Below the pieces are notes generated by a model. It ran no database searches. It was not told where the DNA came from and worked only from the letters and a program-made list of their open reading frames with translations. 64,000 nt of DNA from positions 7,456,675 to 7,520,674 of the forward strand of contig NC_087078.1 of the NCBI RefSeq assembly GCF_026151205.1. The letters are read 5' to 3'. A program made the position numbers and the translations under genes. The stretch is from Bolinopsis microptera (taxonomy: Eukaryota > Ctenophora > Tentaculata > Lobata > Bolinopsidae). Positions 1,481-13,400 of the stretch are shown here, in pieces. Positions within the stretch are counted from its first letter, which is position 1, and each line of letters opens with the position of its first letter.

Positions 1481-4400
1481 ATGGCTACATTTCAAGATTT
1501 TATCTTTGAAAACGAGGAACGAGACGGTATCAGATTCAGCTGGAATGTTTGGCCTTCCAATCGTCTGGAAGCAACTCGAATGGTAATTATTGATATTTCG
1601 TACAATATTTCAAATATATCTTATTCTAAAAACAAAAATTGTCTTTTCTCAACCTGAGGGCCATCCAGTGGTGTACTAACAGGATCAGTGATCACCATTA
1701 TATATTACAGATGTAAAGTCACAATTGATTGATTTGTGAAACAAGACATTATATTTTAAAATACTAATTAAAGCATTGTATTGCAGAAATGCTTTATAGT
1801 GTGTGATACAAACTTGCAAATTCTATCTTGAAATCAGTTATTTAATCTGAAATATTGCAGGTTGTTCCACTTGGTTGTACCTATACACCATTGAAAGAGC
1901 GTCTTGACCTCCCTGAGTTGTGCTATGAGCCTGTGTTGTGTTCTCGTGCTAGCTGCAAGGCTGTCCTGAATCCTCTGTGGTAAGTATTTGCCTTTTTAGT
2001 ATTCCCATGCCACACTTTCTGAACATAACCATATGCTAGTTATTTGTGAGTTGCATATTTTCAATATCTCACTTATAACTGGTAACATGTCACTAATTTT
2101 CTGTTCAAGGCAAGATTCAGTTCCCTGATTAATTAATTTCTTAGTGATGAAAAGAACATGTAATTTAATATGTAACGTGTTTCAGCCAAGTGGATTACAG
2201 AGCCAAGCTGTGGGTGTGTAACTTCTGTCTACAGAGAAACCCATTCCCTCCTCATTACCAGGGTATCACTGAACAACACCAACCTGCGGAGCTCATCCCT
2301 AATTTCAGGTATTGCAGATAGCTTAGTATTAAAAGGAGACTGTCAAAATAGATTATAGCGATAAAAAGCTTGTCGAATCAAAGCTGACGTACATAGTGTA
2401 GTCTGGGCCTGGTTAATGTGCTACATAAGTCAATTCATACCCATATTTTTTTATTGAAAATCTTTTCAAAATAGTACATACATCAATGTAATTGCATGAA
2501 AATAACACGGTCAAAAAGTGATTTCTATGTACTATAATGACGGGAAACCAGAACGTAGTTCGTGCAAAAATTACACCTACAAAATATGGTCCCTGACAAA
2601 ACATTTCATACAATCAACACATATAAATGTAAGATATATAGTAATAGAGATGATTGTGCAATAATAAAATACAGCGTGCATAAAATATCATAATGTTAAT
2701 AATTTGTTAACTTGTTAATGAAATAGATTATATCATACAATACTTTAAAAAACCCAACCCACAACCCAACCCACCCCTAACCCCTTAAATAGTTTGGATC
2801 GGTTATTTTAGATTAGAGAATTGGCATTGGGAGAAATGAGATGCATCTAATAATAATAAGATGCATCTAATAATAGTAATATAATATCACTTGAATTTAT
2901 TGATTTCTGGCAAACTTGGATTTCAATACCACGATATATGAAAAATATAAAAAAGTCCAAAATGCACTGCACACAACATCAACCCAATATAATAATTGTA
3001 TTATTTTAATCCCCCACTAAACTAACCCACTAACAATTATTATTATTGCAGTACGATCGAGTACACCGTTAACAGAGGTGCACCCACTCCCCTGATCTAT
3101 TTGTTTGTAGTCGATACTTGTGTTGAAGAGGAAGACTTACAAGCTCTGAAGGTATGTTATGTCCACTTTTAGCATTGTTTTGATTCAGTTCTCAAACGAT
3201 GTGAAGTTTTAACTCGTGAAGTTATTTCATCCAGTCAAATTCTAGTGATCTCAGTGGAAAATAATAATGTAGTACCTTGTGTTGGTGCATTAAGTGAAAT
3301 ACAGGATAATTTCAAGTTTGGTAATTTACACGACAGCGTGCAATTCATCGGAACTTATTGCTGTATATAGTAACGACTAACAATTTACATTTTCAGGAAA
3401 CCCTGCAAATGTCCCTGTCTCTGATACCACAAAACGCACTAGTGGGCCTCATCTCCTTCGGTAAAATGGTCCTGGTCCACGAGCTTGGAGCGGAGGGTAT
3501 CAGCAAGGCGTTCGTTTTCAAAGGAAGCAAAGAACTGAACGGCAAACAAATACAGGAGTTCCTGAACCTGACTCCTGGAGCGCACGCTGCAAATACCTCA
3601 AACAAGTAAGTGTTAAACTTTTAGTGTTAAACTATTGGTGTGCTGTAACCTTGCCAGCATTACGTTTTATCACAATATATATAATATTGTGTTTTGTTGG
3701 ACCATTTTTTAAGATCAGAAGGTTTATGTTGAATAATTATAAGTCACGTTCTTGACGGATATTAAGGATTCTGTAATGGATTGTCATTTTGGTGAATTAT
3801 TTGATGAATTAAGTGAAAGAAATGAATTGAAAGATTTCAAAAAACAAATTTTATATCACAGTAGCATTCTCACAAACTTGTTATAAAACTGACAGCTTTA
3901 ATCTATTCGCCAAACATTTCTCGGTTTGAGACAAGATTTAAGATTGATTGAAAGGTTCAGTTTATCAATAGATTCAATATAAATCATGCTAGATTTCCAA
4001 AAAAATCACATTTTTCTGTTAAATAAAACTGAATGTGTCCTTATTGTATGTCCTTACTGTAATATGTAGAGCGTAGCCGCTGTAACTTCATTAATTCGCC
4101 AAAAAAACTGGAAAACGTATAGATTCTTCATGCCGAATATGCTCAAGATAAGAAAGCTGTAACAAATCATGTTAAATATTAATCACGCTACAGTCTACTC
4201 TACGATTAAGTTATAAACAATGTCAGTAATAATGTTCTCGTTAGTTTCCTGATGTTCTCTTTCAACCTCCTTGTTAGTTTCTAGACTTCTCAGCTGCTTT
4301 GTCGTCCAGTACCGGTCACGTGACATGCCAGCCAGTGGTCTGATCAAGAGGGGAACTGTTTAAGAGATACTTATATCTGGTTATAAGATAAATATCACGA

Positions 4401-10400: not shown

Positions 10401-13400
10401 GAAGCGCACATTTAGACTCGGTGACTTTCTTTAACTCCAACTTGGTATCCTCCAATTCCAACTTTGTGTCCTCAAGCTGACTTTTTGTCTCATTCAGCTC
10501 TCCTCCCAGCTCCCTCTTGACTCCCTCAAGTTCCACTTTGGTATCATTCAGCTCTCCTCCCATTACCTCTAGGTCTCTCTTTACCCCAACTAGTTCTTCC
10601 TGGGTTGAGTTGAACAGTCCCTGAACTTCCTGTAGTTCTATCTGCGTCCTGTTCATTGAAAGTTGTAGAGTACTCTTTTCACTAACGGCCACCTCCAGCT
10701 TTCCTCTCGTCCTCTGCAGTTCAGCTCCAATAGCAGTACATACTATGTCTAAATCCTGCACAGTACCAGATCTACTCAGCTTCACAATATCTTCCCACTT
10801 TATAACTCTATACTCCTCCAACTGTTCAGGTATCTCTGTACAGAGACCACCTGAAGACATAGCAGCTACTTCTGTAGCTGTCATTTCTTTTGAGTACATG
10901 TTGAAATTAAACAGTTCACCACCGAAATAGTGACCACTGTTGGACCCTAAAGTAAATGCACCACCTGTCTGCAGCTTCCTCCCAGAGGGTGTGGTCTGGG
11001 TACCTGCTAGTTCACCATTAACGTAGACTCTGAAGGTTCTAGAAGCGAGGCTCCACGTGGAGCAGTACATAAACCAAGTACCTACTGGCGAGGTAAACTT
11101 GCTAGTCAGAACATTATCCAGGGAGCGGGAACCAAACAGTATGTTGTAGTAGCCGTTATCTGTCATGAATATCTCGTAATTTTTATAACCAAATGGGGCA
11201 GGGGGACCACCTGACTGGAGTTTGCGAACCCACACACAAATAGTAAATTTGTCTGTGAAGGGGGTCATGTCTGGGCTATATGTTACCAAACTATTTCCAT
11301 CATAAGCAAACTTAAGAGCTGTATAACTCTTGCTATCACTGGCTGCGACAGTGGATCCCGACAGTACAGCAATAACTGATAAAACGATCTGGATAAAACG
11401 TATCATTGTGATTTCGGGAAGGTTGAACGAAATAGTGCTCTCTAAGATGTATCTGAATAACTGTCTCTGTAGATCACTTTTATAAAGGGTCTGGGTCAGG
11501 AGGTATGCATTTTACGGGATTAATTTTGGGACTTTTGGGCGCTTGGATGATGGTGCAGTTGATGGGTGATGACATTTAGGGAATCGGATAAGGTTTCTCG
11601 CTTCAACAATATTCTAAAAAAAGATGCTAGATATTTTGGATGACTGAAGCGTCTTATTGTTATTTTATAAGCAAAATAAATTGTATTACTATTATCACAG
11701 ATATTAATTCATGTAATCAGATAGTACGTCCAATGAGTAGTTGTTAATTGTTACTAATTGGAGATAATATGATAGGTCATGATAAGTGATCTAAACACCT
11801 TACAGCATACTAAACACCTTCTCCCCAGGTTCCTGCAGCCCCTTGCCAAGTGTGACATGAGTATCAGTGACCTGATCGAGGAGCTACAACCTGACCCCTG
11901 GCCAGTGGCCACTGGTAAGAGACCTCTCAGATCTGTGGGTGTGGCTCTGTCCATTGCTGTGGGCATACTAGAGTCTGTGTACCCTAACTGTGGGGCTAGA
12001 GTCATGTTGTTCCTAGGAGGACCCGGCACTCAGGTATCAGAACTGACATTTTATTTTTATTTTGAATGTTTTGCTGTTCAATTTTCATCGCATCGAGTTT
12101 TGGCTGATGAAATTTTTAGTTTGAATCCTCTTTGTTTATAATTGAGGATCTTTGACCTAGTCGAATTGATACTGCCTGCCCATGGTCGTATTATGTATCA
12201 TCAATTTAAACAACAATATTAATCACAGGGCCCTGGAATGATTGTTGGGGAAGACCTGAAAGAAGCTATCCGTTCCCATCACGACATCGACAAGAACGAT
12301 GCACCCTACCTGAAGAAAGCATCCCGATTCTACGAGGGACTAGCCCAGCGCGCTGCTAAGAACGGTCACACTATCGATATTTTCTCCGCAGCCCTTCATC
12401 AGACTGGACTTCATGAGATGCGGCATCTTACCATGCAGACTGGGTGAGTTATACTGTCTTATTACTTATTCAGATATATACACGCGTTAATATATTGTGT
12501 TCTTTTCTTTAACGCTTAATAAGTGTTTTTCCCATATGATATACATACATACTTATTGTTATCACAGATAGCTTTTACAGTAATACCAATATAGTCACTA
12601 GTCAGGAAATTCGTCTGAGAGCTCCGTTTCTTACTCTTAAAATATGTTAAGCTTGATAAAGCAGGAAACTGAAATATATCCACCCCCTACCAGTGGACAC
12701 ATGGTGCTAGCAGATGCATTTGCAACGACACTCTTCAAGCAATCCTACCAAATGTTGTTTGCTAAAAACGACAAAGGCGAGCACAAAATGGGTTTCAACA
12801 TAAATGTTGAGGTTAAGACGACCCGAGAACTGAAGGTTGCCGGAGCTCTAGGTCCTTGTTTCTCTCTGCAACGCAAGACTCCTAATGTTTCTGATACGGT
12901 TAGTTCCTGATGGAATCTTTTATTTTAAAGGTTACGGTGATATTTCACTTATTCTTCATCACTTCATCTAATAAAGGGGGGGGGGGGGGGGGGGGGGTGT
13001 CACGTCCGTCTATGTCCGCTTGTCTCATAGAATCCAAAAAGGACAGGACATAGGCGGACATAGACGGACATAGGCGGACATAGGCGGACATAGGCGGACA
13101 TAGGCGGACATAGACGGACATAGGCGGACATAGGCGGACATTAATGGACACCTAAATTGCTAAATAAAATGTTCAATTTTTGCTGTCATGTTATAGGGGG
13201 ATCATGTTTTTTGTCCGTTCGGTACCCTATATTTTCAAAACGGACAAAAAATAGAGCGGACAAAAACAGACAAAAATGGACAAAAACGGACAAAAATGGA
13301 AATAACATTTAGATGCTTCCTCCTCCTACTCTTCCTCCTCCTCCCCCTGGGTCTTCCTGATCTTCCTCAGTCCTCTTCCTCCTCCCCTCCTAAGTCCTTC

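Follow-up and report, generated by a model that had tools for sequence, protein, structure and literature searches.

Among ctenophores, Hormiphora californensis has been reported to carry 2357 nested intronic genes, 1109 of them adjoined by a transposon on one side or both (PMC8527503), and a nested antisense gene beside transposons is therefore to be expected in a genome of that kind. Among transposons that target TTAA, the miniature inverted-repeat transposable element (MITE) T2-MITE of Xenopus belongs to the Kolobok superfamily (PMC6004289), Kolobok termini are described as following a 5'-RR and YY-3' rule (PMC9587614), and piggyBac-like MITEs of corals are described as ending in CC[C/T]T (PMC2872659). 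Here we describe a locus of the ctenophore Bolinopsis microptera, analysed within a stretch of 64,000 nucleotides of contig NC_087078.1 (the window), in which a small lectin-like gene lies antisense in one intron of SEC23, is present there in two tandem copies, and has three inserts beside one of them. We consider it likely that the nested gene was duplicated in tandem, that the copies diverged, that one of them (copy A) lost its reading frame and that the other (copy B) received the three insertions. The locus is ordinary in that each of its parts is of a known kind, and its sole unusual feature is the long G tracts that end several of the inserts.

The duplicated nested gene and its inserts

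The features at issue, in positions of the window, are the following.

3607..11828, plus strand: SEC23 intron hosting both copies and the inserts; donor at 3607, 3' end just before an exon read from about 11829/11830
3917..6304, no strand assigned: copy A of the duplicated segment, whose left end may lie at about 3628
6419..11584, no strand assigned: copy B of the tandem duplication, with inserts; left end possibly from about 6395
5047..6139, minus strand: copy A lectin-like open reading frame (ORF), disrupted by a net deletion of 2 bp near 5941
10258..11406, minus strand: lectin-like gene of copy B, uninterrupted over 382 aa, with Laminin_G_3 and a long coiled coil
11479..11484, minus strand: TATAAA upstream of the copy B gene, of putative function; copy A counterpart at 6212-6217
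10197..10202, minus strand: AATAAA downstream of the copy B stop, a candidate poly(A) signal; copy A counterpart at 4986-4991
6630..7384, no strand assigned: element 1, a 755-bp foldback; TTAA duplicated at 6626-6629 and 7385-7388
7892..8279, no strand assigned: element 2, 388 bp; GTAGTAGC duplicated at 7884-7891 and 8280-8287; bounds ambiguous by one base
8548..10078, no strand assigned: element 3, 1531 bp; TTAA duplicated at 8544-8547 and 10079-10082

The intron, about 8.2 kb in size, contains two direct copies of one segment and is flanked by exons encoding the Sec23_trunk domain (3397-3606, 2.4e-8, and 11830-12036, 2e-13), the downstream exon matching Sec23A at 1.1e-26. The nested gene is thus confined to a single SEC23 intron with SEC23 exons on either side. 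When the three inserts and one target copy of each are removed from copy B, 2179 of the 2338 columns of its alignment with copy A are identical, the remainder comprising 159 mismatches with 28 gap events, and blastn joins the copies in four pieces with E values from 0 to 3.4e-41 as well as by a match at the left end (E = 4.4e-5). This bears out the tandem direct duplication within one SEC23 intron that had been claimed in an earlier note on this DNA. A further match of 25 bases, between 3628-3652 and 6395-6419, lies beyond the main copies and suggests that the left end of the duplication is at most about 25 bases from the SEC23 donor; the intervening 264 bases (3653-3916) occur in copy A only and have no counterpart in copy B.

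The same note had described the nested gene as an antisense gene for a lectin-like coiled-coil protein, and this too is upheld. Laminin_G_3 covers residues 41-181 of the copy B protein (2.9e-19), with Pfam scores that exceed the curated cut-off of 27.6 in both copies (70.1 bits in copy B, 58.7 bits in the open piece of copy A), and pentraxins are matched weakly, at best at 2.3e-7. The N-terminus of the copy B protein is signal-like as judged by eye, and the product is probably secreted. A single-sequence structure model of this protein has a mean pLDDT of 50.2, which is too poor for a fold search, and we take from it just the layout of strands followed by a long helix. A tblastn search of viral contigs, the sole collection searched with the copy B protein, returned no relatives, and the 5 stretches there that fitted a pattern proved not to be relatives either.

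The two copies of the gene differ in their integrity. Read from its ATG, the copy A ORF extends for 73 aa to a stop at 5918, and beyond the deletion its frame is open to 5047; the frameshift, which was absent from the earlier note, makes the copy A gene either a recent pseudogene or an assembly error, and its copy B counterpart is intact over 382 aa. The coiled coil is also longer in copy B by 54 bp (18 codons, in frame; 10490-10543). The presence of TATAAA and AATAAA at matching places in both copies suggests a compact gene with a single exon. A structure with several exons was considered for an open stretch near 8360-8480 that resembled an exon by eye, and is disfavoured by the putative poly(A) signal that follows the stop, together with the drop in identity beyond that signal, from 97% to 88%.

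Copy B carries three inserts that copy A lacks. Each is flanked by identical target copies, and all lie within the non-coding part of copy B downstream of the gene. Element 1 begins with GGGGGCC followed by 27 G and closes with 19 C followed by GGCCCCC. Its arms are 96% alike, differing at 13 of 339 sites when the G tract is left out, and their likeness is uneven, with 98% over the outer 243 bases and 93% over the inner 125. The ends of element 3 carry GGCCAGA followed by a G tract and agree over 20 bases, or 24 if the TTAA is counted, and within it lies an off-centre palindrome (9583-9889) whose arms differ at 7 of 153 sites, two of these at the turn. Element 2 is probably of a kind other than elements 1 and 3, with a longer target duplication; it ends in GGGGGGATACAACGGTCAT and contains 10-bp minisatellites. 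All three inserts had been recognized in the earlier note, with exact bounds for elements 1 and 3. The bounds given there for element 2 (7891-8280), where no target duplication was recorded, are one of two readings that the sequence fits equally, the one yielding a 6-bp duplication (TAGTAG) and the other the 8-bp duplication GTAGTAGC; the longer is adopted here. Target duplications of 8 bp are made by several superfamilies, hAT among them, and we name no family for element 2.

Divergence of the copies and the order of events

Over the 361 of 382 codons that could be compared (21 were skipped at gaps), synonymous divergence between the copies (dS) is 0.098 and nonsynonymous divergence (dN) is 0.054, a dN/dS ratio of 0.55. 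Synonymous differences amount to 22.5 of 244.7 sites, and the non-coding DNA downstream of the gene differs at 111 of 1026 sites; the two do not differ significantly (P = 0.49), as is expected of one duplication event. The same comparison led us to reject gene conversion as the principal explanation for the pair. Divergence is lower locally, in the non-coding DNA nearest the gene (5 of 71 sites on the 3' side and 4 of 123 on the 5' side, for a non-coding total of 120 of 1220) and in the LamG part (dS 0.059, dN 0.046) relative to the coiled coil (dS 0.164, dN 0.089), with only 11 differences in the 400 columns at 5507-5906 of the lectin part. Probabilities of 0.018 for the longest stretch without silent change, 0.032 for the lectin part and 0.043 for the gene unit with its flanks, which are several looks at one alignment, give only a hint of a homogenised tract in the gene region.

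The history that we favour would begin with a small single-exon gene for a secreted lectin-like protein, antisense in the SEC23 intron, which would have been duplicated in tandem together with its flanks, most simply through unequal exchange. The copies would have diverged, reaching about 10% at silent positions; copy A would have lost its frame, and the gene in copy B would have stayed open. Copy B would have taken three non-autonomous DNA transposons into the non-coding DNA downstream of its gene. Elements 1 and 3 would have moved into TTAA sites by cut and paste, presumably through a transposase provided in trans.

Duplication first and insertion second is the simplest and best-supported order, in that it needs the fewest events, though it is not settled by the sequence, since a cut-and-paste element may later be excised; excision of piggyBac, for example, is described as repairable without a footprint (PMC7351741). 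The earlier note had asked for the divergence of the copies to be set against that of the inverted-repeat arms, and the arms proved to be the less diverged: relative to the 111 of 1026 sites that differ in the downstream non-coding DNA, the 13 of 339 in element 1 give P = 4.5e-5 and the 7 of 153 in the palindrome of element 3 give P = 0.014. This would make the insertions younger than the duplication if the arms were already alike on insertion and conversion has not kept them so since.

The state of copy A at the three sites bears on this order. The element 3 site in copy A is an exact unfilled site, GGCTTAATGAG. At the element 1 site, copy A reads GCTCAAGATAAG against GCTTTAAAAGATAAG in copy B less the insert and one TTAA, which amounts to a 3-bp gap and one substitution, with the TTAA missing. 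At the element 2 site a 33-bp gap reaches in and takes one of the eight target bases, and another of the eight is substituted. Across the 1133 bases at 3917-5049 of copy A there are 19 gap events, one at each of these two sites, and the chance of gaps falling at random on two or more of the three insertion sites is 0.056 for all 19 gaps and 0.013 for the nine of 3 bp or more. Because both the windows around the sites and the 3-bp threshold were chosen with the data already in view, we regard this coincidence as suggestive only.

Such gaps might have been left if element 1, element 2 or both predated the duplication and were excised from copy A with small scars, element 3 having arrived later or left precisely, a history that we consider unlikely but that carries some weight. 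The loss of the TTAA itself at the element 1 site is in keeping with it, as are reports that KolobokP, on excision, can remove 1-5 bases from one flank (PMC9587614) and that the authors of a coral study interpreted an allele lacking a piggyBac-like MITE as the product of excision (PMC2872659). Excision would, however, require more events, insertions plus losses; it sits poorly with element 1 arms that are less diverged than the copies; and the 33-bp gap at the element 2 site exceeds the 1-5 bp reported for KolobokP.

We acknowledge that several points weigh against placing the duplication first. Copy A has a gap rather than a clean empty site where elements 1 and 2 would be; all three inserts lie in one copy, an outcome that three independent insertions would give about 1 time in 4 (2 x 1/8), and loss from copy A would look identical. 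The yardstick of 111 in 1026 omits the non-coding DNA near the gene, and although the fuller 120 in 1220 is still above the arms, this is by arithmetic only. In addition, the uneven likeness of the element 1 arms indicates that they may be partly homogenised, in which case they would look younger than their true age. The earlier note had called the order fixed and the insertions dated by the duplication. The order stands as the simplest, and is supported by the less diverged arms, with its certainty lost to possible excision and to the gaps at two sites; the dating is reduced to a relative order at best, since an age would take a rate and the arms of a palindrome may have been homogenised. Likewise, the claims that copy A is the unfilled site of all three elements, and that it gives direct proof of target-site choice, hold for element 3 only, since at the other two sites copy A differs by gaps of 3 and 33 bp and by substitutions.

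When a segment is duplicated in tandem and just one copy has inserts, the pair offers a convenient natural record of insertion; for element 3, a TTAA element, the states before and after can be read exactly. Such records also have a limit, evident here in that copy A is unclean at two of its three sites, and the absence of an insert need not mean that a site was never filled.

G tracts and other features of the window

Runs of nine or more identical bases in the window comprise five of G, five of C, one of A and none of T, against about 0.06 G runs and 0.05 C runs expected from base-step frequencies. Six of the ten G/C runs are found at both ends of elements 1 and 3 and of a fourth, insert-like stretch:

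12976-14950: bounded by a run of 22 G and, at the opposite end, one of 9 C; AATAAA on both sides

The ends of this stretch, TGTCACGTCCG and CGGACATGACA, differ by one mismatch, and its interior is taken up by 10-bp minisatellites together with a TCC-rich array of 1.36 kb. By eye, it comes after an apparent later SEC23 exon. The remaining G/C runs are a pair at 385-442, of 27 G and 16 C set 15 bases apart, and two single runs (35230 and 46057).

The G-tract ends are the one point here worth a genome-wide look. We think it improbable that the host carries G-tract-ended non-autonomous transposons of more than one superfamily, with TTAA and other targets, whose TTAA members leave small deletions on excision; were this so, copy A would retain two excision scars rather than virgin sites, and the G tracts of up to 27 bases in these elements might form four-stranded DNA. 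Among the papers searched, none joins poly-G, terminal inverted repeat, transposon and G-quadruplex, and three mention both Kolobok and ctenophores. A GC-rich loop-anchor motif is described for ctenophores (PMC12221973), and we claim no link between it and the G tracts.

Long G/C tracts and G-rich stretches are places where assemblies err, and the 2-bp frameshift of copy A stands beside a G-rich stretch in a window that has other odd repeats (a 405-bp repeat at 38825-39836, 100% identical, and a palindrome at 27786-31009, 99.6%). An assembly artefact, in which one copy or some of the inserts would be false, for example through two haplotypes placed in tandem, is nevertheless very unlikely. Divergence between the copies in non-coding DNA, at 111 of 1026 sites, is well in excess of the single-nucleotide heterozygosity of 2% reported for Hormiphora (PMC8527503); moreover, the duplication stops inside the intron and does not include exons, and the inserts have identical target copies on either side.

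Elsewhere in the window, the large palindrome at 27786-31009 has arms of 1476 bases that are 99.6% alike, with 339-bp tandem repeats inside; it could be an inverted duplication of recent origin, an element or a product of the assembly. The tandem repeat at 38825-39836 consists of 2.5 identical copies of its 405-bp unit. An inverted repeat pair at 43583-47641, about 83% alike over 942 columns, surrounds a 12-bp minisatellite of about 76 copies (44596-45506). The stretch 32946-36264 holds an ionotropic glutamate receptor gene (ANF_receptor, Lig_chan-Glu_bd). Among the best 60 of 319 matches of its second exon (35575-36045) in the PDB, the ML032222a receptor scores highest at 94.6 bits, 4zdm follows at 73.7, and the best other chain, a GluK2, has 59; for its first exon (650 aa) GluK2 ranks first in total score, at 110.7 bits over about 540 residues against 101.0 for ML032222a over 136. 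The ML032222a receptor is from Mnemiopsis and 4zdm from Pleurobrachia, both ctenophores; the second exon by itself would point to a probable ctenophore host, and the ranking of the first exon counts against this.

Comparison with known elements and genes

Elements 1 and 3 show the traits by which Kolobok elements are recognized, namely a TTAA target duplication with GG at the start and CC at the end, and because the arrangement TTAA-GG...CC-TTAA agrees with the 5'-RR and YY-3' rule we would class both as Kolobok-like non-autonomous MITEs. A scan of the window for terminal repeats beside TTAA and nine control tetramers gave 26 pairs for TTAA, 29 for AATT, 20 for ATAT, 14 for TATA and 0-3 for each of the other six; many of the first 12 pairs listed for each lie inside large palindromes, and the scan alone does not mark TTAA as special. 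A piggyBac type has very little to recommend it, as the TTAA target duplication is present but the piggyBac terminal motif is not, the ends being GGGGGCC and GGCCAGA in elements that both start with GG and end with CC.

With T2-MITE and KolobokP of the Kolobok superfamily, elements 1 and 3 share the TTAA duplication, the purine-purine start and the pyrimidine-pyrimidine end. They differ from these in the tract of 13-27 G just inside each end and in the near-complete foldback of element 1, and no transposase was seen in either. The AGGRR of T2-MITE is unmatched in them, and the long terminal direct repeats of KolobokP were not noticed, though no dedicated search for these was made. The coral piggyBac-like MITEs are alike in their TTAA duplication and in the comparison of filled with unfilled alleles, whereas the CC[C/T]T ends are theirs and not those of elements 1 and 3.

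The nested protein resembles pentraxins (PTX3 and the neuronal pentraxins) in its ConA-like domain (Laminin_G_3), in the weak sequence match and in having a coiled coil in the same chain. The order of these parts differs, as the nested protein has its lectin domain first and its coiled coil after. In PTX3 the coiled coil precedes the pentraxin domain, and in the long PTX3 chain that was matched the domain comes last, at residues 187-313 of 364. In comparison with the nested genes of Hormiphora, the predicted gene described here is distinguished by its tandem duplicate, one copy of which is broken, and it shares with them its position wholly within one host intron with transposons adjoining.

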